This document shows, in pieces, positions 345-23,300 of a DNA stretch of 37,416 bases. The translations under genes were made by a program, and so were the position numbers. The stretch's first letter is position 1, and each line of letters opens with the position of its first letter. This DNA comes from Flavivirga sp. 57AJ16 (GTDB lineage Bacteria; Bacteroidota; Bacteroidia; Flavobacteriales; Flavobacteriaceae), in assembly GCF_028736925.1 (NCBI RefSeq), contig NZ_JAQZAT010000027.1, forward strand, positions 1 through 37,416, read 5' to 3'. Under the pieces are notes generated by a model. That model had not been told where the DNA came from, did not search any database, and worked only from the letters and a program-made list of their open reading frames with translations.

Positions 345-1109
345 TTACGTTACTTGGCAAACATGTTTTTTATAATAACGATTTAACTCGTTGGCATCAG
401 CACCCATCCATTTTTTTAAATAAATTCTAAAATAATAATATTGTAATTTCCAGATACCATTTGTATAGTAGCATCTGGCTGAGGTTATTAACCATTTTTG
501 AATAACAACAAATTGCTTGCGCTCATATAGTCTGGCAATTAGCTCGTTGTCTTCATAAATAGTAAAATCTTCATTATAGCCACCCATGTTATTGAAAAGG
601 GTCGTTGTTATAAATTGACTTTGGTCACCTCCTCGGCAAGCTTTCCATGGCAAACGGGTTAATTGCCCAGCAAGTCTAAGCCACCAGTGGCTACTATTGA
701 ATTTCATTCTAAAGCAACCTGCTTCGTTGCCTTTTTTGACTTCGTTTATAATAAGCGTGTCAAAATTTTTAGGAGGAAACGAATCGGCATGTAAAAAATA
801 AAGAATGTTACCTGTAGCGTGCTTAGCTCCCAGGTTCATTTGTTTGGCACGTCCTTTAGGAGCGTCTATACATGTTATTTTTGCCTCCTCGAATAGGGTC
901 GAGAGGCTTTTTTTAGCGTGTTTTGAACGGGGTCGAAAGGCTTGCATATAGTTTAATACTATTTCCTTTGACCCGTCCGTACTGCCTCCATCCACGATAA
1001 TTATTTCTGATATGTTTTCTCTCGAGGCGTTGTCTAAAAGATGAGCAAGCAGATTACCAATATGATCTGCTTCGTTTAACATAGGGATGACTATTGATAT
1101 GTTATTCAT
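345..1109 (-). CDS. Family 2 glycosyltransferase, rSAM/selenodomain-associated transferase 2 type
   Basis: This 254-residue GT-A-fold glycosyltransferase matches the TIGR04283 type that accompanies ArsS. The N-terminus MNNISIVIPMLNEADHI is the nucleotide-sugar-binding beta strand, DGGSTDG lies at 40-46, KGRAKQMNLGA near 85-95 and the metal-binding FLHADS near 105-110. GGDQSQF and YEDNEL follow in the acceptor half. It is the last gene of the ars operon and its start overlaps the DUF547 gene by 8 bp, so the two are probably translationally coupled. Residues 56-75 form a basic loop that seems extra compared with the usual 25-30 residue spacing in this family, and the DNA there resembles a genomic repeat. 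A role in attaching an arsenosugar to glycerol or a lipid is inferred from context; the substrate is unknown. Confidence 0.85.
   Translation of the reverse strand: MNNISIVIPMLNEADHIGNLLAHLLDNASRENISEIIIVDGGSTDGSKEIVLNYMQAFRPRSKHAKKSLSTLFEEAKITCIDAPKGRAKQMNLGAKHATGNILYFLHADSFPPKNFDTLIINEVKKGNEAGCFRMKFNSSHWWLRLAGQLTRLPWKACRGGDQSQFITTTLFNNMGGYNEDFTIYEDNELIARLYERKQFVVIQKWLITSARCYYTNGIWKLQYYYFRIYLKKWMGADANELNRYYKKHVCQVT
886..952 (-). repeat. Dispersed-repeat-like DNA inside the glycosyltransferase gene
   Basis: On the coding strand this segment contains GCCTTTCGACCCCGTTCAA followed, after an A-run, by GCCTCTCGACCCTATTCGAG, two related units in tandem. The first unit aligns with the complement of the intergenic repeat at 8482-8510, which contains GCCTTTCGGCTCCGCTCAA; I count about 23 of 29 identical positions over the longer match. 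It is in frame and encodes roughly residues 55-75. Confidence 0.6.
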
Positions 1110-1956
1110 TTAAATTCCAGTTATAGGCTTTAAAACTCTTTTTTGCTTTATGGGAAATGGTGACTTCGGAATATTGATTTAGAAAGTCAATTAACGAACC
1201 TGATTGTTTAAAATCGTTAGCAAACCAGTGAAATATTTTTGATAGCTTTAGGCTGCTTTGAGATATATCATTTCTTTTTTTATCAGCTAAGAATACTTTG
1301 GTAGCATGTGTTAATTGGTCATTTATGTTTGATGGGGTAAAGGCTTCGTTTTGTAGTTTAGGGCAAGAAATGGAAGCACAAACAATAGCAAAATGAATTC
1401 TTGGTTCTTCCATTTTACGTAAAATTTGGTGTTCGATCTCATTTAAATGGTACCATTTTTTGCCAAGTTTCCAAAAGCGTTGCTCCCAAGGTTTTTTAAT
1501 GTCTTTAATACTTTTAATGGGATAATGACGTAAGATTAAATCGATGGTCATGGCATTATAAGCATTGATCCAATAGGCGAGTTTATCATCCTTTGTCCTG
1601 AAATCCTGAGGTGTATGTTCTCCTAAATAGGTCATATAGCTTATTAATTCGTTTCGGTTGGATTTAAAGGCTTTGTAGTCAACAAGACCTTTATTTGAAA
1701 CATGTTTTTGTAATAGTGTGTTCCAGGCTGAATGGTCAATAGTTTCAACTGGCTTTGTTTTTTCTGATACTTCTTTTGTCTTTTGCTCGATTGAGCCTTC
1801 TTCCAAACAGACAATATCCTTTTCTTTATTTATAAGGCTGTCAACCTTAACAGGTTCAGGTTGCTCCATGTTTTTTGAAGTGTTTTCTGTAACACGTTTA
1901 GTTCCGGAGCAAGGCCATAAGGTTATTATTGCTAATAAAATTATAATATACTTCAT
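1102..1956 (-). CDS. DUF547 domain protein, secreted or lipid-anchored
   Basis: This 284-residue protein starts with a signal peptide (MKYIIILLAIITLWPCSG). Cys16 could be a lipidation site, although WPC is a poor lipobox. A charged linker runs to about residue 75, and a DUF547 domain follows at about 85-230 with the family blocks AYWINAYNAMTI (127-138) and CASISCPKL (193-201). The DUF547 fold resembles transglutaminase/papain-like proteins, but its biochemical role is not settled. The gene is 503 bp downstream of arsM and overlaps the glycosyltransferase by 8 bp. DUF547 genes recur beside arsS in Flavobacteriaceae, so I take it as an accessory of the arsenosugar locus acting outside the cytoplasm. 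Confidence 0.85.
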   Translation of the reverse strand: MKYIIILLAIITLWPCSGTKRVTENTSKNMEQPEPVKVDSLINKEKDIVCLEEGSIEQKTKEVSEKTKPVETIDHSAWNTLLQKHVSNKGLVDYKAFKSNRNELISYMTYLGEHTPQDFRTKDDKLAYWINAYNAMTIDLILRHYPIKSIKDIKKPWEQRFWKLGKKWYHLNEIEHQILRKMEEPRIHFAIVCASISCPKLQNEAFTPSNINDQLTHATKVFLADKKRNDISQSSLKLSKIFHWFANDFKQSGSLIDFLNQYSEVTISHKAKKSFKAYNWNLNE

Positions 1957-2459
1957 ATAGCGTGTTTTTTTAAGAACTTAATTCTAAAACCTCACCTTTG
2001 TAGGCATCTAGATTATTGTTAACTGTCGTTTCTGTGATTGTTTTTGGCTTTTATCATTAACACTATTACTGTAAGCTAAAAAAAGCAATTAGAGAAGAAT
2101 AAAAGCATTAAAATAGTCGTAATTGTATTTTTAATACGATACTTTTGACGATATAAATTAAAAATTCTTACTACAAAGTATAAATTTTAAATGCCAAAAA
2201 TAATGAATACGTCAAGGTGATATAATACTTGTATGTTTTAAGTTCATAATGATTGTAAAACGCTAAAAGGATGCATCAATATGTTGTAAGGACAATTTCA
2301 TCAATTGTTTTCTCATATGTCCTTGGCCCAAGTTAAAAATAGTATTGTCGGATTTGACTGTTCCTTCGGTCCTGAATAAAATATTGGAATCAGCATTGGG
2401 GAAAATTATTTTTGGAACAATAGTGCCGTGAGGATTTCTATTAGGTTATTTTATAATAA
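1957..2459. other. 503-bp gap within the ars gene set
   Basis: No complete gene is seen. The minus strand from 2445 down to a TAG at 2263-2265 is open for 60 codons and reads protein-like (for example NTIFNLGQGHMRKQLMKLSL), but it has no start near its beginning and follows an in-frame TAA. It may be a decayed gene end or chance. The remainder (1957-2262) is AT-rich with no structure I can name. Confidence 0.4.
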
Positions 2460-3431
2460 TCAACAACACCCACCACCATCATAATGGTATGTGGATTCTG
2501 AAATATAAATATCGTCTCTATTTAATGCTTTTAATGCCTTTGCTGTTTTATCACAAATGGCCAAAGGCTGATTTTTTAATAGTACATGTCCTGCCTTGTC
2601 ATCAAAATAATCTTCACCTCCGTAGTAAATAGCTGCTTTACCAGTAAAAACACAAGGGCCATCTGCTGGCATAGGGTCTTTTATTGCTGCCACCTCTATA
2701 GATTCTATATAAATTAACTCATTGGTTGGGTAATTTTTAGGATCTAGTATTCTATAGGGTTTCCTAGCTCTAATTTCAACCGTGCCAAAACCCGCATCTG
2801 TTAATGCTTTTGCATATTCGGCAATTGGTAAACTGCCACTTAAGCACAAAGCGCGTAGTCTTTCGTCGTTACGTAAGGTATCATTCATAGGTTGCTCACA
2901 TGTGGGATCGCTCATGACCAACCGACCATGAGGTTTTAAAACGCGATACATTTCTGCGATGGCTTTTTTTAAATCGTCTGCCTTGAAAATATTAAATAAA
3001 CAGTTTTGGGCCGCCACATCAATACTGTTATCTTCTACAGGGAGATTCATGGCATCTCCTTTTTTAAGATCTACAAACTCACTTTTAAACCAATCGTTCT
3101 GAGCTTCGGCCTCAACAAAATTTTTACGTGAGGCTTCTAACATTTCATCAACGATATCGACACCAACCACACCTCCTTTTTGGCGATTAAAATAGGCGAA
3201 TTGTAACAATTCCATACCGCCACCAACACCAACATAAAGCATCTTTGGGTTGTTGGTTAAATCGCGAGCATGAACGGTGCTTCCACAGCCATAGTTCATT
3301 TCCTGCATGATTTTAGGTATTTTTAACCCTGGGAGCTCCCAGATAGGGTTTGTGGTACAGCATAACCCAACATCGGGCATTAAAGCTGCTTCTTTGTAAA
3401 CATCGTGAGTGGTTTCTAAATAATTGCTCAT
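2460..3431 (-). CDS. arsM: Arsenite S-adenosylmethionine methyltransferase, arsenosugar type
   Basis: This 323-residue class I methyltransferase should methylate arsenite with SAM to mono- and dimethylated trivalent arsenic, the substrate for ArsS. The SAM motif is YVGVGGGME (66-74), with an acidic GVDIVDEML strand near 89-98. Cysteines that could bind As(III) are Cys24-Cys25, Cys49, Cys144, Cys178, Cys196 and Cys260, and the protein ends in GGGCC. The 144/196 spacing resembles that of the conserved pair in characterised ArsM enzymes. The first 60 residues (MSNYLETTHDVYKEAALMPD, then CCTTNPIW) match the form paired with ArsS rather than the stand-alone detoxifying form. It is transcribed 157 bp after the phosphorylase gene through a repeat-filled leader. 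Confidence 0.88.
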   Translation of the reverse strand: MSNYLETTHDVYKEAALMPDVGLCCTTNPIWELPGLKIPKIMQEMNYGCGSTVHARDLTNNPKMLYVGVGGGMELLQFAYFNRQKGGVVGVDIVDEMLEASRKNFVEAEAQNDWFKSEFVDLKKGDAMNLPVEDNSIDVAAQNCLFNIFKADDLKKAIAEMYRVLKPHGRLVMSDPTCEQPMNDTLRNDERLRALCLSGSLPIAEYAKALTDAGFGTVEIRARKPYRILDPKNYPTNELIYIESIEVAAIKDPMPADGPCVFTGKAAIYYGGEDYFDDKAGHVLLKNQPLAICDKTAKALKALNRDDIYISESTYHYDGGGCC

Positions 3432-3592
3432 GGTTTCAGTGTTCGGTGTTCAGTATTCAGTGTTCGGTGTTCAGTGTTCGGTGTTCGGTGTTCGGTATTC
3501 AGTGTTCAGTGTTTCGGTTTCAACTTCAACTTCGATTTCGATTTCAGTGTTCAGTGTTTCGGTTTCAACTTCAATTTCATTTTCAATTTCAA
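3432..3592 (-). repeat. Heptanucleotide- and hexanucleotide-phased array between pnp and arsM
   Basis: Nearly the whole intergenic region is simple repeats. On the coding strand it has GAAATT/GAAGTT-type hexamers followed by a run of seven-base units of the form ACACTGA, ACACCGA and ATACTGA. A 30-40 bp block (CCGAAACACTGAACACTGAA plus flanks) occurs twice. The array touches the arsM start codon on one side and the pnp stop on the other, so it forms the arsM leader; no Shine-Dalgarno sequence is visible. Confidence 0.85.
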
Positions 3593-4401
3593 AGCGTCTT
3601 AATAAGTTCTTTAAACAAGGTTATCATATCCGGTTCTGCTTTTGCCGCATTTTCAATGATATCCGAGATATTAACGGGTTCTAAGTTATCTGGGTCGCAT
3701 TCATCTGTTAAAACTGACACGGCTGCTGCTTTTAATTTTAAATGATTTGCTACAATAATTTCAGGTACGGTACTCATGCCAACAGCATCTGCCCCGATAA
3801 TTTTTAGCATACGGTATTCTGCTTTTGTTTCTAATTGGGGGCCTACTACGCTTGCATACACCCCTTTATGCAGTTTAATATGGTTTGCTTTAGCTATACT
3901 TTCAAATTTTGAATTGATTTCGGCGTTATAAGGAGCGCTCATATCTGTAAAGCGTTCTCCCAGTTTTTCAACACCTTTAAATGCTAAAGGAGAGCTGCCC
4001 TGCAAATTAATATGATCGTCAATAATCATTAATTCGCCTTTGTTAAAGTTTAAATTAATGGCTCCTGCGGCATTGGAAACCAATAGTGTTTTGATGCCTA
4101 ACTTTTCCATAATGCGAACAGGGTAGGTGACATCTTGTAACGTGTAGCCTTCATACAAGTGAAAGCGTCCCTGCATGACCATCACTTTTTTGCTGGCAAG
4201 TTCACCATAAATTAATTTTCCTTTATGGAACTCGACCGTTGCTGTTGGGAAGTTGGGAATATGATTATAACTCACTTCTTTTATAATGTCTATTTCGTTG
4301 ATGAGCTGCCCTAACCCTGTGCCTAGTATGATACCAATTTCAGGGGCTTTAAAACCTTTGTCTTGTAAGTATTCAGTGGTTTCGTTTATGTATTTAATCA
4401 T
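3589..4401 (-). CDS. Purine nucleoside phosphorylase
   Basis: This 270-residue protein is a trimeric-type (family I) purine nucleoside phosphorylase, which splits purine nucleosides with phosphate into base and ribose-1-phosphate. The phosphate-binding GTGLG lies at about 27-31, followed by GRFHLYEG, SNAAGAIN, the base-pocket block VGPQLETKAE and the ADAVGMSTVPE segment. Length is normal. It sits between the CofC-like gene (47-bp gap) and arsM in the ars operon. The placement suggests that it removes adenine from the arsenic-containing nucleoside made by ArsS; this is inference, and ordinary purine salvage would look the same in sequence. Confidence 0.88.
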   Translation of the reverse strand: MIKYINETTEYLQDKGFKAPEIGIILGTGLGQLINEIDIIKEVSYNHIPNFPTATVEFHKGKLIYGELASKKVMVMQGRFHLYEGYTLQDVTYPVRIMEKLGIKTLLVSNAAGAINLNFNKGELMIIDDHINLQGSSPLAFKGVEKLGERFTDMSAPYNAEINSKFESIAKANHIKLHKGVYASVVGPQLETKAEYRMLKIIGADAVGMSTVPEIIVANHLKLKAAAVSVLTDECDPDNLEPVNISDIIENAAKAEPDMITLFKELIKTL

Positions 4402-4448
4402 TTTATATTTTTTGAAATTAATTTAAAAAAAAATGTTATGTTATGAAT

Positions 4449-5084
4449 TTATACGTTATCAATTAAGGATTTTACCTTTAATTGAAGCGTTTCATTGTGC
4501 TGGTAGAATGATGAGTTTTCTAAATCTTCAAAAGTATCAATATCATTTAATGCTTCTAGTAAAGTATAAGATATATTTTCTTTATTTAATTCTTTGAGAG
4601 TTGCTTCCAATAAATGAGATTCGCTCCAGGGCTTATTATTAAATATAGAACGGTGCATTTTTGTCATTCCTACTAAGTAATAGCCACCATCCATAGCAGG
4701 TCCGAAAACAACTTCGTTATTGTTTAGGGCATGGAGTCCATTTTCTATATGTACGGAGCTAATATCGGGCAAGTCGGAGCCTATGAGTACAATGCGTTCA
4801 TAACCATCCTCAAACCCTTTTGTGAAAGCGTTTTGCATACGTTCACCTAAATTTTTGCCTACCTGAATCGTTTTGTAGTCGTTTTTCCATTTGGTATTAA
4901 CTACCGCATCAGAAAAATAGATGCGTTTATCTGTCGGTATATTTTTAGTAGCAAGCTCGGTAACTTTAACCAATTCACTATAAACATGAAAAGCCCCTTG
5001 ATTGCCAATGGTTTTGGCAAGCCTTGTTTTTACCTTGCCTAATTTTATATTTTTAACAAAAACAATAATAAGTGCTTTACTCAT
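4449..5084 (-). CDS. CofC-like nucleotidyltransferase-fold protein, rSAM/selenodomain-associated transferase 1 type
   Basis: This 211-residue DUF2064 protein matches the TIGR04282 type that accompanies ArsS. The N-terminus ALIIVFVKNIKLGKVKTRLA carries the lysine/arginine-rich nucleotide-binding loop seen in CofC- and MobA-like enzymes. LIGSDLPD (about 101-108) provides the metal-binding aspartates and FGPAMDGGYYLVGM is the family signature. It overlaps the rhodanese gene by 8 bp, indicating coupled translation. Relatives transfer a nucleotidyl group to a phosphorylated acceptor. In this operon a sugar-1-phosphate from the phosphorylase would be a suitable acceptor, but no activity is known to me for this branch. 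Confidence 0.82.
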   Translation of the reverse strand: MSKALIIVFVKNIKLGKVKTRLAKTIGNQGAFHVYSELVKVTELATKNIPTDKRIYFSDAVVNTKWKNDYKTIQVGKNLGERMQNAFTKGFEDGYERIVLIGSDLPDISSVHIENGLHALNNNEVVFGPAMDGGYYLVGMTKMHRSIFNNKPWSESHLLEATLKELNKENISYTLLEALNDIDTFEDLENSSFYQHNETLQLKVKSLIDNV

Positions 5085-5571
5085 ATACTTTTATGCCTTT
5101 TTTTACCCATTTTCCCCATACTTCGGAAAAAGCATGAATGCTATCTGTTTCTTTTTCTACTAAATTATAAATAGGTAAATCATTATTTTTCCATTCAAAA
5201 ATGCCGCCGTATAAATTTTCTACATTATTATAGCCTGCTTTTTTAAGGTTGCCTGCAATGGAATCGGAGCGTATTCCCAAGGAGCAGTAAACAACTATTT
5301 TGGCGTTTTTATTAGGGATTCTTTTTTGAATGTTGCTCACTTTAAATTTATTATACCCAACATGAATGGCATTTTTTAGATGGCTTACTTGGTATTCGGA
5401 CCATGCTCTGGCATCTAAAAGTATGGGTGGTGTTGTTTGCTTTTTTAATTGTTTCACATAAATATACGGAACCCTTTCTTTACTGTGTTCTTTTAATAAA
5501 GATTTAAGATCGTTTTGAGAAAATCCTGAAGTAATAAAGCTTATAAATATGTAAAAAGGTACTTTGTTCAT
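5077..5571 (-). CDS. Secreted rhodanese-like protein
   Basis: This 164-residue protein has a short signal peptide (MNKVPFYIFISFITSGFSQ) and one rhodanese domain at about 35-137. LLDARAWSEYQVSHLKNAIH is the entry motif, and the active-site loop is CSLGIRS with Cys96 as the persulfide-carrying residue; a shortened GG-F-EW block ends the domain. It begins 2 nt after the arsS stop and overlaps the next gene, so it belongs firmly to the ars operon. Rhodaneses move sulfur through a cysteine persulfide. A periplasmic role, perhaps in thiolating or handling arsenic species, is only inferred. Confidence 0.85.
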   Translation of the reverse strand: MNKVPFYIFISFITSGFSQNDLKSLLKEHSKERVPYIYVKQLKKQTTPPILLDARAWSEYQVSHLKNAIHVGYNKFKVSNIQKRIPNKNAKIVVYCSLGIRSDSIAGNLKKAGYNNVENLYGGIFEWKNNDLPIYNLVEKETDSIHAFSEVWGKWVKKGIKVYE

Positions 5572-5573
5572 AA

Positions 5574-6629
5574 TTAAGCGACAACACCTTGACAGCTACT
5601 TCCTGCTCCAGCAGTACAACCATAACAGTGTTGGGAAATAACAATGTGACGACCTTCTAGAAGCGCTTCGTTATATTCCGAGATATGTTTTACTTTGCTG
5701 TTTACTGGTAATTCTAACATTTGGTTGAAATCACAGTCAAATAAATAACCGTCCCAGCTAACAGATAATGTATTTGTACACATCACATTAGCAACAGCAG
5801 CTGGATTATATGCTTCGACTAAAGCATACATGTAATCTTCATAATTTTCGGAAGCAATTAAGTAATCCAAAAATCTACTGATGGGTAAATTTGTTATGGC
5901 AAATAAATTATGAAACTGAATATTAAAATCTTCTTTTAATGCCTTTTTAAAATCCTTTTCCATGGCGGCTTGGTCTCCTGGTAAAAAAGCACCAGATGGA
6001 TTATAGACTAAATCCAATCGCAGGTCGCTATCTGGTATACCGTACCCTATAGCATTTAATTCCTGTAGTGCTTTTATAGACTTGTCAAAAACCCCATCCC
6101 CACGTTGTTTGTCTGTTTTTCCGCGAGTCCAATGTGGCATCGAGGATACGACATGTACATGGTGCTTTTTAAAGAATTCGGGTAAATCGTAATATTTTTT
6201 ATGTGCTCTTATTATAGTTAGGTTAGAGCGTACAATAAAATCTTTAATACCGGCTTTGGCAGCTTCTTCTACAAACCATCTAAAGTTAGGGTTCATTTCT
6301 GGGGCACCACCGGTTAAGTCTAGGGTATGGGCACCGGTCTTTTTAATAACGTCCAAACACTGTAGCATGGTTTCCTTGGTCATGATCTCCTTGCGATCGG
6401 GCCCCGCATCTACATGGCAATGCTCACAAACCTGATTGCACATATAGCCGACATTAATTTGTAAAATCTCTAGTTTCTTAGCTTTTAGAGGGAATTGTTT
6501 TGTCTCGGAAATTTTATTTTTAAACGTAGGGAGCTCCCCATTTTGAAATATACCATTTGATAGGATTTCCAATTGGCGGTTACTTTGTGCCAAATCGCTT
6601 TCGCGTTTGTGTAAGGACTTTGTTGCCAT
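5574..6629 (-). CDS. arsS: Arsenosugar biosynthesis radical SAM protein ArsS
   Basis: This 351-residue radical SAM enzyme has the cluster motif CNQVCEHC (Cys64, Cys68, Cys71), LTGGAPEMNP as the SAM-binding GGE-like strand and a C-terminal cysteine-rich tail: FDCDF near 296, then HCYGCTAGAGSSCQG with Cys335, Cys338 and Cys346. This is the TIGR04167 architecture. Characterised ArsS joins dimethylarsenic to the 5'-deoxyadenosyl radical, giving 5'-deoxy-5'-dimethylarsinoyl-adenosine. Some homologs carry selenocysteine in the tail; here all tail positions are cysteine and no in-frame TGA is used. The start at 6629 is supported by conservation with three duplicated upstream copies of the first codons. 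It is followed at 2 nt by the rhodanese gene. Confidence 0.9.
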   Translation of the reverse strand: MATKSLHKRESDLAQSNRQLEILSNGIFQNGELPTFKNKISETKQFPLKAKKLEILQINVGYMCNQVCEHCHVDAGPDRKEIMTKETMLQCLDVIKKTGAHTLDLTGGAPEMNPNFRWFVEEAAKAGIKDFIVRSNLTIIRAHKKYYDLPEFFKKHHVHVVSSMPHWTRGKTDKQRGDGVFDKSIKALQELNAIGYGIPDSDLRLDLVYNPSGAFLPGDQAAMEKDFKKALKEDFNIQFHNLFAITNLPISRFLDYLIASENYEDYMYALVEAYNPAAVANVMCTNTLSVSWDGYLFDCDFNQMLELPVNSKVKHISEYNEALLEGRHIVISQHCYGCTAGAGSSCQGVVA

Positions 6630-7330
6630 ATTACGATTTAAGAATTACGATTTAAGAATTACGAGTTGTGAATTACGAATTAATATATGGATGTGAAATC
6701 CAAAATCGTAAATCGTTTTACATTTCAAGTTTAAATCACTTTCTCGTTTATGTAAGGACTTTGTTGCCATATTTTGATTTAAGAATTAAGAATTAAGAAT
6801 TAAGAATTACGAATTAAGAGTTATGGATTACGAATTAATATATGGATGTGAAATCCAAAATCATAAATCCAAAATCCAAAATCTAATATCGTAAATCCAA
6901 AATCAAAAATCGTAAATCGTAAATCGTTTTGCATTTCAAGTTTAAATCACTTTCGCATTTATGTAAGGACTTTGTTGCCATATTTTGATTTAAGATTTAA
7001 GAATTAAGAATTAAGAATTAAGAGTTATGGATTACGAATTAATATATGGATGTGAAATCCAAAATCATAAATCCAAAATCATAAATCTAATATCGTAAAT
7101 CAAAAATCAAAAATCGTAAATCGTAAATCGTTTTGCATTTCAAGTTTAAATCACTTTCGCATTTATGTAAGGACTTTGTTGCCATATTTTGATTTAAGAT
7201 TTAAGAATTAAGAATTACGAATTAATATATGGATGTGAAATCCAAAATCGTAAATCCAAAATCATAAATCTAATATCGTAAATCAAAAATCATAAATCGT
7301 AAATCGTTTTACATTTCCAATTTATTCACT
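6592..7330 (-). repeat. Four-copy tandem duplication between the peroxidase-like gene and arsS
   Basis: The region repeats a unit of 204-210 bp. Each unit runs from the last codons of the peroxidase-like gene through the intergenic sequence into the first codons of arsS. Start-like ATG codons on the minus strand end at 6629 (real), 6770, 6981 and 7185, each followed by codons for MATKSLHK. The copies join the gene end and gene start at a shared GAAAGTGA-like sequence. Between the ends lie seven-base-phased units such as GATTTAC, GATTTTG and TTAATTC. The first copy is shorter (145 bp). Confidence 0.9.
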
Positions 7331-7644
7331 TTATTCATCATTTGCACACCATGAACCAATGTTGCGCCACTTTTTATAGCGGCTCCAACATGCAGTGCTT
7401 CCATCATTTCTTCCTTGGTAATACCACGCTGTAATCCGTCTTTTGTATAGGCATCGATACAGTAAGGACATTGTTCTGTATGGGAAACGGCTAATGCGAT
7501 TAAGGACTTTTCACGAGCTGTGAGTGCACCTTCTTCAAAAACTTTTCCGTAGTATTCAAAAAATTTATCACCTAGTTCTTGATTCCATTCACTTATTTTT
7601 CCAAACTTTTTAAGATCTGCTGGATCGTAATACGTTTTTTGCAT
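7309..7644 (-). CDS. ArsS-associated AhpD-like (carboxymuconolactone decarboxylase family) protein
   Basis: This 111-residue protein is an AhpD/CMD-fold protein with the redox motif EQCPYC (Cys59, Cys62) and the block LTAREKSLIALAVSHTEQCP. It matches the small peroxidase-like family (TIGR04169) found beside ArsS. Classical AhpD has a histidine four residues after the second cysteine; here that position is Tyr66, while His55 lies upstream. It is the first gene of the operon, separated from arsS only by the tandem duplication. The role is probably thiol-disulfide or peroxide chemistry on arsenic intermediates, which is inference; only the fold and the association are supported. Confidence 0.85.
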   Translation of the reverse strand: MQKTYYDPADLKKFGKISEWNQELGDKFFEYYGKVFEEGALTAREKSLIALAVSHTEQCPYCIDAYTKDGLQRGITKEEMMEALHVGAAIKSGATLVHGVQMMNKVNKLEM

Positions 7645-11471: not shown

Positions 11472-12698
11472 ATGAAAGAATTATTAAAAAAATTTGAAAA
11501 TAAAGTTCCAGAAATAGTTTTTAATTGGAAAGATACAGAGACATATGCAGAGGGATGGACTGTTATAAACTCTTTGCGGGGAGGAGCAGCCGGAGGAGGA
11601 ACACGCATGCGAAATGGTCTGGATATGAATGAAGTTTTATCCTTGGCCAAAACGATGGAGATCAAATTTACAGTTTCGGGCCCTGCCATAGGGGGCGCGA
11701 AATCGGGCATAAATTTTGATCCAAGTGATCCTCGAAAAAAGGAGGTTTTAGAACGGTGGTATGCTGCCGTATCCCCATTATTAAAAAGTTATTATGGAAC
11801 AGGGGGCGATTTAAATGTAGATGAAATACATGAAGTGATTCCAATTACAGAAGAGAGTGGTGTATGGCATCCCCAAGAAGGTGTCTTTAATGGCCATTTT
11901 AAACCAACTGAAGCAGATAAGATAAATAGAATAGGGCAGTTGAGACATGGGGTTATCAAAGTCATAGAAAGTGCTAATTATTCTCCCGATGTAGCAAGAA
12001 AGTATACGGTAGCAGATATGATTACTGGTTTTGGTGTTGCCGAAGCAGTTAAACAGTACTATCATATTTATGGAGGGGCTGTTAAAGGTAAGCGAGCAGT
12101 GATTCAAGGTTTTGGAAATGTGGGCGCAGCTGCAGCTTTTTACTTGTCACAAATGGGGGCTAAAGTTGTTGGGATTATTGATATTGCTGGAGGTTTAATT
12201 AATGAAAAAGGATTTACTTTTGAAGAAATAACCAGTTTATTTCTTGCAAAAAAAGGGAATACATTAGTAAGTGATGATTTAATTCCTTTTGAAGAAGCCA
12301 ATCAAAAGATCTGGTCTATAAAAACAGAGATTTTTGCACCTTGTGCAGCATCACGTTTAATCACACTTCACCAAATAGATCAAATGATCGATAATGGTTT
12401 AGAAGTTATTTCCTGTGGGGCAAATGTCCCTTTTGCCGATAAAGAGATCTTCTTTGGGCCTATTATGGAACATATCGATTATAAAGTGAGTTTAATCCCA
12501 GATTTTATTTCTAATTGCGGAATGGCCCGTGTCTTTGCATATTTTATGGAACGCAAAGTACAGATGACGGATGACGCCATATTTAATGATACATCAAATA
12601 TAATAAGAGAAGCACTACAAAAAGTGTATAGCAAAAGCGAATTAAAAACAGAGATCAGTGCAACAGCATTTGAAATTGCGCTCAATCAATTAATATAA
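11472..12698 (+). CDS. Glu/Leu/Phe/Val family amino-acid dehydrogenase
   Basis: This 408-residue NAD(P)-dependent dehydrogenase catalyses oxidative deamination of an amino acid, or the reverse. The dimerisation domain (about 20-160) carries the glycine-rich GGAAGGGTRMR, Lys65, GGAKSGINFDP with Lys77 as the catalytic lysine, and GTGGDLNVDE. The Rossmann domain carries GFGNVG (213-218). The sequence shows the family but not the substrate; glutamate and branched-chain amino acids are both possible. The nhaD gene begins 10 nt downstream, so the two are probably co-transcribed. Confidence 0.88.
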   Translation: MKELLKKFENKVPEIVFNWKDTETYAEGWTVINSLRGGAAGGGTRMRNGLDMNEVLSLAKTMEIKFTVSGPAIGGAKSGINFDPSDPRKKEVLERWYAAVSPLLKSYYGTGGDLNVDEIHEVIPITEESGVWHPQEGVFNGHFKPTEADKINRIGQLRHGVIKVIESANYSPDVARKYTVADMITGFGVAEAVKQYYHIYGGAVKGKRAVIQGFGNVGAAAAFYLSQMGAKVVGIIDIAGGLINEKGFTFEEITSLFLAKKGNTLVSDDLIPFEEANQKIWSIKTEIFAPCAASRLITLHQIDQMIDNGLEVISCGANVPFADKEIFFGPIMEHIDYKVSLIPDFISNCGMARVFAYFMERKVQMTDDAIFNDTSNIIREALQKVYSKSELKTEISATAFEIALNQLI

Positions 12699-14440: not shown

Positions 14441-15142
14441 ATGCTTAATACATTATTACAAACCACACAAGAGGGGGCCGAAGTGCTTACCGACGAAGAA
14501 TCAGTTGAAAAAACACTTTCAATTATAGAATTAATAAGCAGCGGAGGAGTTGCAGGACAGATTATTATTGCTGTTCTTTTTATATTACTTGTTGGGGCTA
14601 CTTATATTTATTTTGAACGTATTTTTGCTATAAAGGCCGCTTCGCAAGTGGATTCAAATTTTATGAATCAAATTAAAGACCATGTGAGTAATGGAAAAAT
14701 TGATTCGGCTCAAATGTTATGTGCTCAAGTAAATACTCCAGTTTCTAGATTAATTGGGAAAGGCATTTCAAGAATAGGAAAACCTCTTGCCGATATTAAT
14801 ACAGCCATTGAAAATGCTGGGCGCTTGGAAATTTATGGCTTAGAAAAAAATGTGAGTATTTTGGCAACGATCTCTGGGGCTGGGCCTATGATCGGATTTC
14901 TTGGAACGGTTATTGGTATGATATTGGCAATATTCGAACTAGCCAATGCAGGTGGAACGATACAGATGGATGTTTTGGCAAGTGGATTGTATACGGCCAT
15001 GACAACTACCGTTGCAGGGTTAATTGTAGGTATTGTTGCTTACATTGCGTATAATCATTTGGTAGTAAAGACAGATAAAGTAGTATACCAGATGGAAGCT
15101 AATTCTTTAGAGTTCCTAGACCATTTAAACGAGCCTACGTAA
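14441..15142 (+). CDS. exbB: MotA/TolQ/ExbB proton channel family protein
   Basis: This 233-residue inner-membrane subunit forms the proton channel that drives TonB. Membrane helix 1 lies at about 38-58 (IIIAVLFILLVGATYIYFE); helices 2 and 3 lie in the C-terminal half, with the family motif ISGAGPMIGFLGTVIGMI and TAMTTTVAGLIVGIVAYIAY. The N-terminal 35 residues are a non-cleaved periplasmic extension typical of Bacteroidota ExbB. It is followed 1 nt later by exbD, so the two are coupled. With two SusC porins nearby, TonB energisation is a sensible role, although TolQ-like use cannot be excluded. Confidence 0.88.
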   Translation: MLNTLLQTTQEGAEVLTDEESVEKTLSIIELISSGGVAGQIIIAVLFILLVGATYIYFERIFAIKAASQVDSNFMNQIKDHVSNGKIDSAQMLCAQVNTPVSRLIGKGISRIGKPLADINTAIENAGRLEIYGLEKNVSILATISGAGPMIGFLGTVIGMILAIFELANAGGTIQMDVLASGLYTAMTTTVAGLIVGIVAYIAYNHLVVKTDKVVYQMEANSLEFLDHLNEPT

Positions 15143-15143
15143 T

Positions 15144-15536
15144 ATGAATTTTAGAGGAAGAAATAAAGTAACACCAGAATTCAATATGTCTTCAATGACA
15201 GATATTGTATTCTTGCTTTTAATATTTTTTATGATTGCTTCTACGCTGGTAACAACTAATGCCATTGATATTTTATTGCCAAAAGCAAGTGGGAAAACAG
15301 AGAATAAGAAATCAGTAGCAGTAAGCATCAAAAAAGATCTGACCTATTATATAGACCAGAAACGTGTTGGGGAAAGTGTGTTGGAAAATGAATTGCTAGC
15401 AGCTTTATCTTCACAAGAAAAACCAACGATTGTTTTAAGAGCGGAGAAATCGGTTCCTGTGGAGAATGTGGTAAAGGTTATGGATATAGCTAATAGAAAT
15501 AAGTTTAAAGTCATATTAGCGGTAAAACCTAAATGA
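15144..15536 (+). CDS. exbD: ExbD/TolR family biopolymer transport protein
   Basis: This 130-residue single-pass protein carries the membrane helix MSSMTDIVFLLLIFFMIAST, in which Asp20 is the conserved proton-carrying aspartate of ExbD/TolR. A short basic cytosolic N-terminus (NFRGRNK) precedes it, and a periplasmic domain of about 90 residues follows. It begins 1 nt after exbB and ends 13 nt before the tonB-like gene. It forms the channel complex with ExbB. Confidence 0.9.
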   Translation: MNFRGRNKVTPEFNMSSMTDIVFLLLIFFMIASTLVTTNAIDILLPKASGKTENKKSVAVSIKKDLTYYIDQKRVGESVLENELLAALSSQEKPTIVLRAEKSVPVENVVKVMDIANRNKFKVILAVKPK

Positions 15537-15549
15537 AAATTATTATTTA

Positions 15550-16401
15550 ATGAAGAAATACTTCAAGACCAAACATGAAAAAAATTCAGCAAAATTAACA
15601 GCATTAATTGCCGTTATTTTGTTGCTATTGTTGTTTGTGGTAGGCACTCCTTATATGGATCCTCCAGAAGAGTATGGGGTTGCTGTAAATTTTGGAAACA
15701 CAGATTTTGGTAAAGGAAGGGTGCAACCGTTAAAGCCTGTAAAGTCTGAGCCCCGAAAAATAGAACAACCGCCCCAACCGGATGTTTCTAAAACAGAACC
15801 AACAAAAGCTTCTCAGACTAAGGAAGAAGTATTGACACAGGAAAACGCTGAATCCATAGCTATAAAAAAACAAAAGCAGGCCGAAGCGAAAGCGAAAGCC
15901 ATTGCAGATGCTAAAGCAAAAGCGGAAGCCGACAGAATTGCTAAAGAGAAACGGGAACAAGAGGAGAAAAAGAAAAAATTAGATGCCTTAATAGGTGGGG
16001 TAAGTAAATCTGAAGGAAGTGAGACAGGTAGTGAAGGCAACGACAATAAAGCAGGGGACAAGGGACAATTAGACGGTAACCCTTATGCACCGAGTTATTT
16101 TGGTGGTCGAGGAACAGGGAGTGGTGGTGTTGGTTACGGATTAAATGGAAGAGGTACGGCTACTTATAAGAAACTAAAGCAAGATTGTAATGAATCAGGG
16201 CTTGTTATAGTCAAGATTATTGTAAATAATAGCGGAAATGTCATAGAAGCGGTTCCAGGAGTTAAAGGGACTACCAATACAGCACCATGTTTATTGGAAC
16301 CGGCAAAAAAAATAGCATTATCCCATAAGTGGCGGGCAGACTCTAAAGCTCCCGCAAAACAAATCGGTTTTGTGAAAGTAAACTTTAAACTAGGACAGTA
16401 G
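15550..16401 (+). CDS. tonB: TonB-like energy transducer
   Basis: This 283-residue protein has a membrane anchor at about 16-36 (LTALIAVILLLLLFVVGTPY), a proline/lysine-rich stretch (PLKPVKSEPRKIEQPPQP), a lysine- and alanine-rich coiled region at about 95-145, a glycine-rich linker (GGRGTGSGGVGYGLNGRG) and a C-terminal TonB-like domain containing GLVIVKIIVNNSGNVIEAV. That order is classic for TonB, which spans the periplasm and pulls on outer-membrane receptors. Two cysteines in the terminal domain (DCNESG, APCLLE) may form a disulfide. It is the third gene of the operon with exbB and exbD. Confidence 0.85.
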   Translation: MKKYFKTKHEKNSAKLTALIAVILLLLLFVVGTPYMDPPEEYGVAVNFGNTDFGKGRVQPLKPVKSEPRKIEQPPQPDVSKTEPTKASQTKEEVLTQENAESIAIKKQKQAEAKAKAIADAKAKAEADRIAKEKREQEEKKKKLDALIGGVSKSEGSETGSEGNDNKAGDKGQLDGNPYAPSYFGGRGTGSGGVGYGLNGRGTATYKKLKQDCNESGLVIVKIIVNNSGNVIEAVPGVKGTTNTAPCLLEPAKKIALSHKWRADSKAPAKQIGFVKVNFKLGQ

Positions 16402-18940: not shown

Positions 18941-20122
18941 ATGAGTAAAGACATTGAAAATCTGATTGTAAAATTCTTGCTAAAAGAAGCCAGTTTTGAT
19001 GAACTTCAGCAACTTGAACTTTGGATTAATAATCCAAAAAACGAAACAATGTTTTCAGAGTATATTAAAACCAATGCTTCTATAAATAATGTTATGAATC
19101 AATATGACAAGAATAAAGCAAAAGAAAATATTATTAAACGCATAAGGCAAGAAAAGAAGTCTGTATCATTGTACAAAAGACCTTGGTTTAAATACGCAGC
19201 TGCAGCAGTCCTTGTTATTGCATTAGCATCAACGTATTTCTTAAGAGACCAGATTTTTGGAAACCAAATAGAGCAAACAACGCCTATCATCGTTAACAAC
19301 CAAATCGAACCTGGCACCGAAAAAGCAACGCTTACTTTAGAAACTGGAGAAATAGTAGCATTAGAAAAAGGCACAACATATCAAACTCAAAACGCAGTGA
19401 GCAACGGCGGACAAATCACATATAATGATAATACTTCACTTGAATTAGTCTATAACTATCTAACAATCCCAAGAGGAGGGCAGTTTCAAATGACCCTTTC
19501 AGATGGTACCAAGGTTTGGTTGAACTCGGAGAGCCAACTAAAATACCCTGTAAGTTTTGCCGACGGCAAAAGCCGCCAGGTAGAACTTGTTTACGGAGAG
19601 GCTTATTTCGATGTATCACCAAGCACAGAGCATAATGGTTCAGATTTCAAAGTATTTAATAATAATCAGGAAGTTAAGGTATTAGGTACTGAGTTCAACA
19701 TCAAAGCTTATAAAGGTGAAACCAATATCTACACTACGTTGGTAGAAGGAAAAGTAAATGTCACCGCAATGTCATCCAGAGGAAGCGAGGTACGAGCGAC
19801 GAAGGATCTTGTCCCGGGGCAGCAGGCTACATTAAATATAAATAATAATCAATTGGCAATTAGTAATGTAAATGTCAATCGGGAAATTGCTTGGATTAAT
19901 GGAGAGTTCATGTTGGAACATAAAACCTTAAAAGAGATAATGAAGGTATTATCGCGTTGGTACGATATGGATGTAACATTTGCTAATGAAGAACTAGGAG
20001 AGATCAGATTTGTTGGTGTTTTAGGTAAAGATCAAACCATAGTAGAAATACTAAACACAATCAAAATCTTTGGAGTCATCAACGACTACGAAATAAACAA
20101 CAAACAAGTATTGCTAAAATAA
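18941..20122 (+). CDS. FecR family anti-sigma factor, locus 1
   Basis: This 393-residue membrane regulator has a cytosolic sigma-binding part (1-80), a membrane helix at about 84-101 (YAAAAVLVIALASTYFL), a periplasmic FecR domain at about 175-275 (LPRGGQF-like IPRGGQFQMTLSDGTKVWLN, YGEAYFDVSP, LGTEFNIKAY) and a DUF4974 domain at about 320-393 (LKEIMKVLSRWYDMDVTF). It transmits a signal from the SusC STN domain to the sigma factor. Residues 277-291 are encoded by repeat-like DNA, and the loop there is seven residues longer than in the paralog at 28504-29688. It is first in the operon with susC after a 237-bp leader. Confidence 0.9.
   Translation: MSKDIENLIVKFLLKEASFDELQQLELWINNPKNETMFSEYIKTNASINNVMNQYDKNKAKENIIKRIRQEKKSVSLYKRPWFKYAAAAVLVIALASTYFLRDQIFGNQIEQTTPIIVNNQIEPGTEKATLTLETGEIVALEKGTTYQTQNAVSNGGQITYNDNTSLELVYNYLTIPRGGQFQMTLSDGTKVWLNSESQLKYPVSFADGKSRQVELVYGEAYFDVSPSTEHNGSDFKVFNNNQEVKVLGTEFNIKAYKGETNIYTTLVEGKVNVTAMSSRGSEVRATKDLVPGQQATLNINNNQLAISNVNVNREIAWINGEFMLEHKTLKEIMKVLSRWYDMDVTFANEELGEIRFVGVLGKDQTIVEILNTIKIFGVINDYEINNKQVLLK
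19769..19815 (+). repeat. Dispersed-repeat-like DNA inside fecR of locus 1
   Basis: The segment ATGTCATCCAGAGGAAGCGA followed by GGTACGAGCGACGAAGGATC looks like an intergenic GTCAT...GGAGCGA...GGATCTC repeat of Bacteroidota, is visibly richer in G and C than its surroundings, and is read in frame as MSSRGSEVRATKDLV. The equivalent loop of the paralogous FecR is shorter and lacks it. Confidence 0.55.
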
Positions 20123-20125
20123 TTT

Positions 20126-20205
20126 GTCATTGCGATTACACGAAAGAAAGGACTTCTTTCTTGAGGTTACATAGCTAAGCTAACGACGTGGCAATCTCAA
20201 GAATA
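20126..20205 (+). repeat. Degenerate GTCATTGCGA...GCAATCTC repeat after fecR, locus 1
   Basis: The stretch starts GTCATTGCGA and ends GCAATCTCAAG, the two ends of a repeat type often seen in Bacteroidota intergenic DNA. It contains a 7-bp hairpin AAGAAAG-GACTT-CTTTCTT (20144-20162). A weaker counterpart lies at the same place in locus 2 (29692-29757). Confidence 0.5.
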
Positions 20206-20231
20206 ATATAAAAATTGACTAACAACCTAAA

Positions 20232-20327
20232 ACCAAAATATATGAAGATATAACTACAAAGAAAAAAGGGAGAAAAGTTTATCCGTCGAAAGTCAAACCT
20301 TATCCCCCTAGATACATTAATTAATTA
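20232..20327 (+). promoter_or_regulatory. Conserved susC leader, locus 1
   Basis: Between fecR and susC, two blocks are shared with locus 2: AAAATATATGAAGA (20236-20249) and TATCCCCCTA followed by ATTAATTAATT (20301-20326). A third shared block, CACACAAATTTATGGAA, spans the susC start. A mini-ORF of three codons (ATG AAG ATA TAA, 20242-20253) lies in the first block. This suggests a promoter or 5' leader with regulatory function. Confidence 0.5.
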
Positions 20328-20359
20328 AAAAATTTAACTAATCAAATACACACAAATTT

Positions 20360-23300
20360 ATGGAAATTAAATTAACCAATGTCGCATTTCTCCACAGAAA
20401 ACGACTTTTAATGATCTTTATGAGAACATTCATTTTCTTATTGTGCACCACAGTATTCAGTTTCAATGTAGAAACCACGTTGGCACAGGAAAAAGTTACG
20501 ATTGATGCCGATAAGGTAGTAACCGTAGATGAAGTGTTTGAAATCATTATTGACCAAACAAAATACCGTTTCATGTACCCTGAAGACTTATTCAAGGATA
20601 TGCCAAAAGTACAATTGAAGAAGGGTACGATTAGAATGGATAAGCTTATCAACCAAACTATTTCTTTTGGTAGCTTCAATGTAGTGTTAGCAGAAAACTA
20701 CACCATTCTTATTAAGGAAGCTAAAACCCAACAACAAATTAAGGTTACAGGTCAAGTAACCGACGAGTCCAACCAGCCCATTCCCGGTGCTACGGTCTTA
20801 ATTAAAGGCACAACTAAAGGTACGGCAACAGACTTTGATGGTACTTATAGCATTACAGTACCTAACCCAGAAAACGTATTGGTGTTCTCTGCTTTAGGTT
20901 TTGAAACCCAAGAAATAACAGTAGGGAATCAAAATACTATAAATGTTTCCTTTAAGGAAGATATCAGTGAATTGGATCAAGTGACGATTAATGCAGGATA
21001 TTATAAGACTTCTGAAAAATTGAGAACTGGTAATATTTCAAGTATAACTAAAAAAGAAATAGAACTACAGCCAGTATCTAACCCAATTGCAGTATTACAA
21101 GGAAGAATGCCTGGGGTCAATGTTACTCAAACTAGTGGATTGCCTGGTGCAGGATTTGATATACAGATAAGAGGGCAAAATAGTATTGCTGCAGGTAATG
21201 ACCCATTATATATTGTAGATGGAGTTCCTTTTGCATCCGAACCAATCAATTATTTACAAACATCAGGTATTCTTGGTGGAACAATTAGTCCGTTAAATGG
21301 TATAAATCCTGCAGATATTGAAAAAATAGAAGTATTAAAGGATTCAGATGCAACTTCTATTTATGGTTCCCGAGGAGCTAATGGGGTAGTGCTTATCACC
21401 ACTAAAAAAGGAGTGTCTGGTAAAGCAAAATTAAATATACATTTTAATACTAGTATGGGACGCGTTACCCAGTTTTTGGATATGTTAGAAACTCCACAAT
21501 ATTTGGAAATGAGGCGTGAAGCTTTTGTGAATGATGGTAGAACTCCAGGTACAAGCGATTATGACGTAAATGGAACATGGGACCAAAACCGATATACAGA
21601 TTGGCAAAAGGAGTTGATTGGTGGTACTGCATATAGAACTATGGGACAAGTATCTGTATCAGGTGGTAGCAATAACACGCGATATTTAATGAGTGGTACA
21701 TACCAAAAAGAGACTACTGTTTTTCCGGGAGAGACTGGTTATAAGAAAGGTAGTGTTTTATTAAACTTGGATCATAATTCTGAAGATGGAAGATTTAACA
21801 TACATTTTTCTGGTAATTATGTGGTAGACGACAATAATCTACCTGCAGCAGATCTCACTCGGGTTTCACTTAACTTGGCTCCCAATGCACCTGCATTATA
21901 TGACGATCAAGGCGAGCTAAATTGGGAAAATAATACATGGAACAACCCACTTGCAGATTTGGAAAGTCGCTTTTCATCCAATTCAAAGACTTTGATAACG
22001 AATAGCGTGATTTCTTATGCCATACTTGAAGACCTGACTATCAAAGCTAATCTTGGTTATACGGATTCCCAGATGAAAGACAGTAGAATCTTACCCTCGA
22101 CGAGATACAATCCATTTTATGGTGCAGATAGTAGGTATTCTTCAGTTTATCAAGGTACAGCATCCCGTACTTCTTGGATAGTTGAACCCCAATTACAGTG
22201 GAAAAAAGATATTGGAGCTTTAAAATTAGATGTATTATTAGGAGGTACTTTCCAACAACAGAAACAGGAACAATTAGGACTTTATGGCTCGGATTATCCA
22301 AGTAATGAGCTTTTGGACAATATTTCTGCTGCATCTACCCTTATCATTAATTTGGATTCTGATTCAGAATATAATTACCAAGCTGTTTTTGGTAGAATTA
22401 ATCTAAATTATAATCAAAAATATATTCTGAACTTTACAGGAAGACGTGATGGTTCTTCACGTTTTGGTACAAATAGACAGTTTGCTAATTTTGGAGCAGT
22501 TGGTGCAGCATGGCTGTTTTCAGAAGAGCGTTTCATTAAGGAGTCTTTTCCTATAATTAGTTATGGTAAATTAAGAGGTAGCTATGGTACGACTGGGAAT
22601 GACAAAATTGGTGATTATCAATTTTTAGAAACCTACAGTCTTGGAAGCACTAATTATGATGGTGTAACTGTATTAAGTCCTTCCCGCCTCTTCAATCCTA
22701 ATTTTGGATGGGAACGTAATGAAAAGTTAGAAATAGGTTTGGAACTTGGTCTTTGGAATGATAAGGTTTTATTATCAAGTAGCTACTATCGCAATCGATC
22801 TTCCAACCAACTAGTGGGCATTCCCATGCCAGGTACAACAGGGTTTAATAGTCTTCAGGCGAATTTAGATGCAACAGTACAGAATACAGGATTAGAAATT
22901 GAAGCCAGTTCTAGATTGGTTAACACCGACAAAATTCGTTGGAACATATCACTGAATTTAAGTTTTCCTGAAAATGAATTACTTTCTTTTCCTGGCCTAG
23001 AAGCTTCAACGTATGCGAATAGGCTTGTTGTTGGGTACCCCTTGGACATTAGAAAAATGTATTTCAGTACAGGTGTAGATCCCGCAACTGGTATTTACCA
23101 GTTTAGGGACTATGATCAGGATGGTAATATTTCGTCACCCAATGATAAGCAATATATAGCAGATTTTAATCCCGAGTTTTATGGTGGTTTGTCCAACAAT
23201 TTTAGCATAGGTTCATTCGAGGTGGATTTCCTTTTTCAGTTCACAAAACAACAAAATTTGAATTATCTATTCAATTCGGGATTTTCTGGCTCTATGGCAA

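Follow-up and report, generated by a model that had tools for sequence, protein, structure and literature searches.

Which enzymes complete the synthesis of an arsenosugar once ArsS has acted? Arsenic is widely present in marine algae as arsenosugars, and the reactions of ArsM and ArsS are known from other organisms; to our knowledge, none of the enzymes past ArsS has been established. ArsM-ArsS arsenosugar biosynthesis has reportedly been approached by gene work in Synechocystis. The question is raised here by a gene cluster from a marine Flavivirga of the Flavobacteriaceae, contained in a stretch of 37,416 nucleotides that was analysed as a whole and is referred to as the window. The operon type is already known, and five of the cluster's proteins are named "arsenosugar biosynthesis" by NCBIfam. 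The work on ArsS of Cheng et al. (2021) is cited in PMC12159101, the accessible portion of which gives no steps past ArsS, and a genome paper, in the part available, does no more than name two genes as "arsenosugar biosynthesis glycosyltransferase" (PMC13077682). A literature search that covered few subscription-journal papers found none in which purine nucleoside phosphorylase (PNP), S-methyl-5'-thioadenosine phosphorylase (MTAP) or TIGR04282 is connected with arsenosugar synthesis, which is not proof of absence. The linkage data presented below point to specific candidate enzymes for three arsenosugar steps, in a defined order.

Content and layout of the gene cluster

The cluster comprises eight genes between positions 345 and 7644, running from the gene for a peroxidase-like protein to that for the TIGR04283 protein. 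Every gene named in the preliminary description of this DNA was found there on the minus strand, with profile scores over the cut-offs (Table 1). ArsS and ArsM both exceed the cut-offs of arsenosugar families (TIGR04167 and NF038099), which places the cluster among the arsenosugar operons. They belong to the same families as the proteins of the known ArsM-ArsS system and are expected to use the same substrates, whereas PNP, the rhodanese, TIGR04282, DUF547 and TIGR04283 are additions in the window. The TIGR04283 protein also matches PF00535 (73.2 versus 23.3) and, with its own family cut-off exceeded, is a member of GT2.

Table 1. Features of the cluster, with profile scores and cut-offs.
Feature	Position	Strand	Evidence or remark
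TIGR04283 family GT2 glycosyltransferase	345..1109	-	TIGR04283 218.9 bits, cut-off 182
DUF547 protein	1102..1956	-	PF04784; Pfam match only
ArsM, arsenosugar-type arsenite methyltransferase	2460..3431	-	NF038099 574.1 bits, cut-off 400
Tandem repeats of 7/21/45 nt, PNP-ArsM gap	3432..3591		
PNP, family I	3589..4401	-	NF006054 336.8 bits, cut-off 218
TIGR04282 / DUF2064, predicted CofC-like nucleotidyltransferase fold	4449..5084	-	TIGR04282 191.3 bits, cut-off 134
Rhodanese-domain protein NF045521 ("rhoda_near_glyco")	5077..5571	-	194.3 bits, cut-off 145
ArsS radical SAM enzyme	5574..6629	-	TIGR04167 439.4 bits, cut-off 300
Tandem repeat of ~204 nt, about three copies	6630..7305		Includes copies of the arsS 5' end
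AhpD-like arsenosugar-associated peroxidase-like protein	7309..7644	-	TIGR04169 192 bits, cut-off 120

Although it occupies a single strand, the cluster is not one tight unit. The genes for ArsS, the rhodanese, TIGR04282 and PNP lie at most 47 nt apart or overlap; the rhodanese and TIGR04282 genes overlap by 8 nt, as do those for DUF547 and the TIGR04283 glycosyltransferase. Elsewhere there are gaps of 679 nt between the peroxidase and ArsS genes and of 157 nt between those for PNP and ArsM, both with repeats, and of 503 nt between the ArsM and DUF547 genes. A search of the window with a flavobacterial promoter consensus gave 6 matches against 3.7 expected, none of them upstream of the operon genes.

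Linkage of the phosphorylase to TIGR04282

Linkage was surveyed in 100 Flavobacteriaceae genomes. PNP and TIGR04282 are present in all 73 that bear ArsS and, wherever both occur (76 genomes), they lie less than 2 kb apart. In 10 of the 73, ArsS is more than 300 kb off or on another contig, which in draft genomes need not mean distant, and PNP is still beside TIGR04282. It is to TIGR04282 rather than to ArsS that PNP is tightly linked. Fisher's test gave values of 1.7e-8 for ArsS with PNP and 1.1e-17 for ArsS with TIGR04282; these are uncorrected for relatedness, and they are confounded because some of the genomes scored negative are small or incomplete. Correction of the TIGR04282-ArsS association on the PNP tree left three supported independent pairs (p 0.25; seven pairs on the best tree), which is too thin a base for a test. 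The arrangement was then compared over 108 loci that pair PNP with a strong TIGR04282, each with a different PNP sequence. Both genes are on the same strand in 107 of these loci and TIGR04282 is upstream in 102, with a median gap of -4 nt, and therefore the arrangement is more than chance. Among 110 PNP+TIGR04282 loci, a rhodanese is encoded less than 7 kb from PNP in 91 and DUF547 in 68. DUF547 is also annotated at plasmid loci of Hymenobacter, Acinetobacter and Burkholderia and is a recurrent member of the module.

A different picture was obtained outside this family. Of 395 genomes, 156 exceeded the ArsS cut-off, from which 100 loci were picked by hand for spread and not at random; several arsS loci are truncated by contig ends, and the set is not wholly independent, since L113 and L222, on contigs of equal length, probably come from one genome. 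No PNP- or MTAP-like reading frame was found at the 83 arsS loci of the same phylum outside Flavobacteriaceae. Forty-six phylum loci lack a strong TIGR04282 near arsS and were followed genome-wide (45, plus G134); in none of the 45 genomes looked at outside Flavobacteriaceae is PNP less than 2 kb from TIGR04282. The preliminary description had tied PNP to arsS. Within Flavobacteriaceae their co-occurrence is indeed far from random and PNP is linked to pathway genes, but the association is absent from arsS loci elsewhere in the phylum, and ArsS proves separable from the pair that PNP forms with TIGR04282.

Beyond the phylum the survey covered plasmid records, in which six genera have ArsS and 47 of 52 records are from Burkholderia. 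On plasmids of Burkholderia, Cupriavidus and Acinetobacter an MTA phosphorylase, in place of PNP, lies beside TIGR04282 or less than 2.3 kb away. Three of these proteins reach the TIGR01694 cut-off of 274.85 bits, with scores of 312.1, 314.8 and, barely, 275.3 in Cupriavidus. MTAP is a second phosphorylase family coupled to TIGR04282. No phosphorylase was seen in the ArsS-positive plasmid stretches shown for Hymenobacter, Pseudanabaena and Thiodictyon, and many genera, such as Azospirillum, Mycetohabitans and Sphingomonas, carry a plasmid MTAP without TIGR04282. Viral contigs scanned with the ArsS of Acinetobacter gave no match.

Predicted enzyme classes of TIGR04282 and PNP

The TIGR04282 protein contains a GKVKTRLA loop together with GSDLP and GPAMDGGYYLVG stretches. 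Its predicted model (pLDDT 93.2) has 7p97 and Rv2983 as the nearest characterised folds, both nucleotidyltransferases. The protein thus combines a predicted nucleotidyltransferase fold with a G-K-x-K-T-R-L-type loop, which we take to be the NTP-binding loop, and the CofC-like fold put forward in the preliminary description is supported; a loop of this type is missing from a TIGR04282 paralogue, "type B". The score against TIGR03552, the profile for CofC (2-phospho-L-lactate guanylyltransferase), is below the cut-off (37.6 versus 105 bits), and identity to CofC / FbiD (2-phospholactate or PEP guanylyltransferase) and to 3-phosphoglycerate guanylyltransferase is ~14-17 %. These nearest characterised enzymes use three-carbon phosphates, not sugar-1-phosphates. 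In NCBIfam, "TIGR04282/TIGR04283 family arsenosugar biosynthesis glycosyltransferase" is the name of the families whose cut-offs the two window proteins exceed. Since the TIGR04282 member resembles a nucleotidyltransferase more than a glycosyltransferase, this name is possibly wrong for it, and the motif and model suggest that the annotation should become nucleotidyltransferase. TIGR04282 is also seen fused to a glycosyltransferase.

The window PNP exceeds the TIGR01697 cut-off (288.4 versus 197.1) and, with its NF006054 match, is a clear member of family I, as is 4lna of Spirosoma linguale. It scores below the inosine/guanosine-specific equivalog TIGR01700 (285.5 versus a cut-off of 293.35 bits) and far under the MTAP equivalog TIGR01694 (91 versus 274.85 bits), and differs from the enzyme of the proteobacterial loci. 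A PF01048 search of its own genome gave two matches, the window PNP and a protein unlike it, C45. By eye, C45 has the appearance of a uridine phosphorylase-type protein. As the sole family-I PNP found in the genome, the window enzyme presumably serves ordinary purine salvage too.

In PNP, Asp243 or a hydrophobic residue at 257 would favour 6-amino or 5'-modified nucleosides. Asp at the position of human Asn243 was considered as a signature of an adenosine-type PNP and dropped; it is also present in 13 of 13 PNPs from TIGR04282-less loci and in 4lna and 8swt. The window PNP differs from the human enzyme in having an aliphatic residue in place of His257. Of the 110 alignment rows that represent TIGR04282 loci, three of which are copies of the window PNP, 6 have a gap at this position (numbered by motif) and the other 104 all have an aliphatic residue there, as do 8 of 13 other PNPs. 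As a signature it is weak and confounded by descent, and the contact of His257 with the 5'-OH is described as not strongly persistent in the accessible part of PMC4308819.

A proposed route and its alternatives

From gene content, linkage and the predicted fold of TIGR04282, we infer the later reactions, and what each enzyme acts on, as follows. ArsM would provide dimethylarsenic, which ArsS would couple to 5'-deoxyadenosine. With phosphate, PNP may convert the resulting dimethylarsinoyl-deoxyadenosine to adenine and the alpha-1-phosphate of 5-deoxy-5-dimethylarsinoyl-ribose; TIGR04282 would use an NTP to turn this sugar-1-phosphate into a nucleotide sugar, and TIGR04283, as an inverting GT2 enzyme, would in the last step transfer the sugar to an acceptor, either glycerol or a glycerol lipid, yielding a beta-riboside as in nature. 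The anomers would be consistent with this route. The phosphorylase may have been recruited from salvage metabolism: Flavobacteriaceae would use PNP, some Proteobacteria MTA phosphorylase, and other organisms an unlinked housekeeping enzyme. That the operon makes arsenosugars by phosphorolysis, activation and transfer is the reading toward which we lean, by a little; it is well motivated and testable, partly supported and not proven. The same ordering had been suggested in the preliminary description. The linkage of PNP and MTAP and the predicted fold of TIGR04282 speak for it. Against it, PNP is missing from the 83 arsS loci of the phylum outside Flavobacteriaceae, it is kept in genomes that lack ArsS, and the module also occurs free of ArsS.

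The latter occurrence concerns three near-complete genomes (G182, G411 and G429), which keep rhodanese-TIGR04282-PNP-TIGR04283 and have neither ArsS nor an arsenosugar ArsM. More tentatively, PNP or MTAP with TIGR04282 may constitute a general route from nucleoside via the 1-phosphate to nucleotide sugar, in which case TIGR04282 is misnamed and, given these three genomes, arsenosugar synthesis would be its main and not its only use. There the module would glycosylate something with plain or other 5'-modified ribose. We know of no description of NDP-pentose synthesis from nucleosides via the 1-phosphate.

An unlikely alternative to the three-step route is that the phosphorylase is for salvage only. 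It would clear the nucleosides that arise as ArsM and ArsS consume SAM (stray 5'-deoxyadenosine, and adenosine derived from SAH) and recover adenine, while arsenoribose would be freed and joined to glycerol in some different way. MTAP is a usual remover of such SAM-derived by-products. The uniqueness of the family-I PNP in its genome agrees with such a role, as does the retention of PNP in 12 genomes with neither ArsS nor TIGR04282. However, in the 10 split clusters PNP has remained beside TIGR04282 and is parted from ArsS, in four of them (G441, G466, G471 and G403) the PNP stretch is without ArsM as well, and in G182, G411 and G429 the module persists without ArsS or an arsenosugar ArsM.

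There is a smaller chance that TIGR04282 activates the aglycone side, for example glycerol-3-phosphate or phosphoglycerate, while PNP separately frees a sugar-1-phosphate or hydrolysis frees arsenoribose. The closest characterised structures (3-phosphoglycerate guanylyltransferase and Rv2983/FbiD) do take three-carbon phosphates, and glycerol and phosphate arsenosugars are among the natural ones, according to the available part of PMC10456119. This would leave unexplained the coupling of TIGR04282 to two phosphorylases and its fusion to a glycosyltransferase.

It is more doubtful still that the pair is a historical accident, PNP having arrived beside TIGR04282 in a Flavobacteriaceae ancestor with the order never broken. 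The restriction of the adjacency to this family, among the phylum genomes looked at, would fit. Against this, ArsS itself is distant or on another contig in the 10 split genomes, the commonest non-module neighbour is found at only 30 of the 110 PNP+TIGR04282 loci, and the acyl-CoA dehydrogenase and anhydro-MurNAc kinase genes that flank the cluster in the window are at 10 each. In genomes that lack TIGR04282, the DNA read around PNP contains none of the remaining module genes, and MTAP repeats the TIGR04282 pattern elsewhere. Finally, it is very improbable that PNP aids arsenate reduction through nucleoside arsenolysis to a thiol-reduced ribose-1-arsenate, perhaps with participation of the rhodanese. 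Arsenate reduction by PNP in the presence of dithiols has been reported in vitro (Gregus 2002 and Radabaugh 2002, as cited in the part of PMC12608789 available), but such a function would predict linkage to ArsM, ArsS or arsenate handling and not to TIGR04282, and the module occurs without ArsS and the arsenosugar ArsM.

The arsenosugar gene cluster and its repeats

The arsenosugar gene cluster claimed in the preliminary description was confirmed, with NCBIfam names over their cut-offs and the DUF547 protein named from Pfam. The window makes up contig 20 of a genome of 4.9 Mb (completeness 99.94 %), and its ArsS is 95 % identical to those of an uncultured Flavobacteriaceae bacterium and of Flavivirga rizhaonensis. 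The operon type is already known: both TIGR04282 and TIGR04283 carry the NCBIfam label "arsenosugar biosynthesis glycosyltransferase", and PMC12159101 cites the adenosylating step, by a radical SAM enzyme, as established.

Genes of the window cluster, with an ECF-type sigma factor gene of the same window
Product	Position	Strand	Transcription order	Basis or remark
Peroxidase-like protein	7644-7309	minus	first	TIGR04169, over cut-off
ArsS	6629-5574	minus	second	TIGR04167, over cut-off
Rhodanese	5571-5077	minus	third	NF045521, over cut-off
TIGR04282 protein	5084-4449	minus	fourth	NCBIfam, over cut-off
PNP (family-I purine nucleoside phosphorylase)	4401-3589	minus	fifth	
Arsenosugar-type ArsM	3431-2460	minus	sixth	NF038099, over cut-off
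DUF547 protein	1956-1102	minus	seventh	Pfam
TIGR04283 protein	1109-345	minus	eighth	NCBIfam, over cut-off
ECF-type sigma factor	27773-28318	minus		between the two FecR-SusC sets

The genes are closely packed from ArsS through PNP, and tandem repeats occupy two other intergenic gaps. Upstream of arsS (6630-7305) about three units of ~204 nt stand in tandem; they contain copies of the 5' end of arsS, start codon included, and are interleaved with arrays of a 7-nt repeat. The PNP-ArsM gap (3432-3591) holds another array, of 7/21/45-nt repeats.

Linkage of the phosphorylase to TIGR04282 and to ArsS

In a phylum-wide survey of 395 genomes, 156 had ArsS over the cut-off, and 100 arsS loci, mostly of about 20 kb and hand-picked for spread, were read. 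PNP lay inside 13 of the 17 loci from Flavobacteriaceae, the window's own family, and inside none of the 83 others. All 118 matches to a query for MTA phosphorylase (MTAP) among the ORFs of the whole set of loci were ORFs already called PNP. Genome-wide follow-up placed PNP beside TIGR04282 in 3/3 Flavobacteriaceae genomes and in none of 39, then none of a further 6, from outside the family; 34 of these 45 carried a pair of PNP matches, neither of them as close as 2 kb to TIGR04282. Among the genomes of the phylum looked at, the PNP-TIGR04282 pattern is confined to this one family.

We then surveyed 100 Flavobacteriaceae genomes from 99 genera with the window PNP, ArsS and TIGR04282 as queries, which were present in 88, 73 and 78 genomes respectively. 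All 73 ArsS-positive genomes had both PNP and TIGR04282. The 27 ArsS-negative genomes comprised 12 with PNP alone, 3 with PNP adjoining TIGR04282, 2 with TIGR04282 alone and 10 with neither. The distance from PNP to ArsS was at most 2 kb in 48 of the 73 genomes and at most 15 kb in another 15; in 5 it exceeded 300 kb, and in 5 the two genes were on separate contigs. PNP lay within 2 kb of TIGR04282, by contrast, in all 76 genomes having both; TIGR04282 is therefore the conserved partner of the phosphorylase. The earlier expectation that PNP is placed non-randomly relative to arsS thus holds in Flavobacteriaceae and not for the 83 loci read elsewhere in the phylum, and the closer partner of PNP is TIGR04282.

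Reading of 40 additional stretches resolved two units, peroxidase-ArsS and rhodanese-TIGR04282-PNP-(ArsM)-DUF547-TIGR04283, with occasional members absent; 63/73 genomes have the two units no more than 15 kb apart. The PNP stretches of the 12 genomes with PNP and no TIGR04282 held no further module gene. The 110 PNP+TIGR04282 loci include two duplicate retrievals of the window locus; once these are set aside, 108 remain. The two genes share their orientation in 107 of them, 102 have TIGR04282 on the upstream side, and in 87 the genes overlap or stand less than 60 nt apart. The most frequent non-module neighbour within 7 kb occurred at 30/110 loci.

Three compared genomes (G182, G411 and G429, the last lacking DUF547 on its short contig) have the second unit; a search at E 1e-40 found no ArsS in them, and no ArsM reached the arsenosugar cut-off. 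This means either that arsenic is not the sole use of the module or that ArsS was lost while the remainder lingers. Three others (G441, G466 and G471) have ArsS and no ArsM over that cut-off, G471 showing weaker ArsM-like matches. A Roseomonas haemaphysalidis plasmid locus, with no annotated ArsS, carries TIGR04282, DUF547, two radical SAM proteins, a phosphate/phosphonate ABC transporter and a metallophosphoesterase, and may be another sign of TIGR04282 use beyond arsenosugar synthesis.

A second phosphorylase and the proposed route

Among 72,556 plasmid records, 52 contain ArsS; they come from six genera, Burkholderia accounting for 47 of the records. In Burkholderia glumae BGR1, MTAP, TIGR04283 and TIGR04282 are contiguous, with arsS about 6 kb off; in Cupriavidus sp. 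KK10 an unannotated MTAP directly follows TIGR04282, with ArsS 3.6 kb off; in Acinetobacter portensis mtnP is on the opposite strand, 2.2 kb from TIGR04282. These three MTAPs reach the TIGR01694 cut-off (that of Cupriavidus barely) and the window PNP does not. No phosphorylase was found within the stretches read of the Hymenobacter, Pseudanabaena, Candidatus Thiodictyon and Roseomonas plasmids, and MTAP without TIGR04282 is found on plasmids of many genera. With PNP in Flavobacteriaceae and MTAP in three plasmid genera, two phosphorylase families are therefore placed near TIGR04282. The usual substrate of MTAP is a 5'-modified adenosine, which is the kind of compound that ArsS makes. In our view this recurrence, noticed post hoc in three genera, is the strongest individual point in favour of phosphorolysis.

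Nucleosides are beta anomers; nucleotidyl transfer retains the anomer and GT2 enzymes invert it. Nucleoside phosphorylases yield alpha-1-phosphates (PMC7226091) and arsenosugars are listed as beta-ribosides (PMC10456119). The proposed route would lead from beta-nucleoside to alpha-1-phosphate, through nucleotidyl transfer with retention, and by GT2 inversion to a beta-riboside, a chain that fits the proposed enzyme order and falls short of proof. PMC10456119 also has the adenosyl residue lost in a proposed route to one algal arsenolipid.

Against these points, no family-I PNP other than that of the window was found in the genome, so salvage alone accounts for the presence of this PNP and only its position needs explanation. 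The characterised proteins closest to TIGR04282 act on three-carbon phosphates, and a tree-aware association test was underpowered. The Asp243 signature of PNP (human numbering) is not specific and was discarded as evidence. The phosphorolysis-activation-transfer proposal of the preliminary description finds partial support, in an improved form: the unit worth testing is the phosphorylase-TIGR04282 pair. We lean slightly towards the full route, which no paper found in the literature searched states.

Neighbouring genes

In Flavobacteriaceae genome G425, one PNP lies near TIGR04282 and ArsS (locus L201, contig C1); another (contig C15), 47 % identical to the window PNP and with His at human position 257, is in a stretch without TIGR04282. 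The pair offers a natural comparison for substrate preference. A fatty-acid-hydroxylase (PF04116)/sterol-desaturase family protein, as at L012:5128-6009, occurs at 30/110 PNP+TIGR04282 loci and, in different phyla, in the A. portensis and Candidatus Thiodictyon plasmid loci; its recurrence may mean that the end product is lipid-linked.

Of the 194 arsS loci read, 33 (e.g. L004, L222, L223, L213, L214 and L216), or 32/192 by different ArsS sequences, have ArsS joined to a same-strand cassette of SusC, SusD, a sodium:solute-symporter-like protein (slightly below the Pfam cut-off) and a metallophosphoesterase. The cassette is absent from the window. A TIGR04282 paralogue without the NTP loop (type B) accompanies 31 of the 33, and the cassette suggests import of a sugar- or phosphate-bearing substrate tied to arsenosugar metabolism.

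Elsewhere in the window, a 408-aa protein (11472-12698) resembles, by eye, a Glu/Leu/Phe-type dehydrogenase and matched no NCBIfam model at 1e-30. At 14441-16401, ExbB/ExbD genes precede an unnamed 283-aa protein. The stretch 18941-34677 holds two FecR-like genes, each with a SusC-type receptor after it; in the first set a SusD-like protein and S9 peptidase follow as well.
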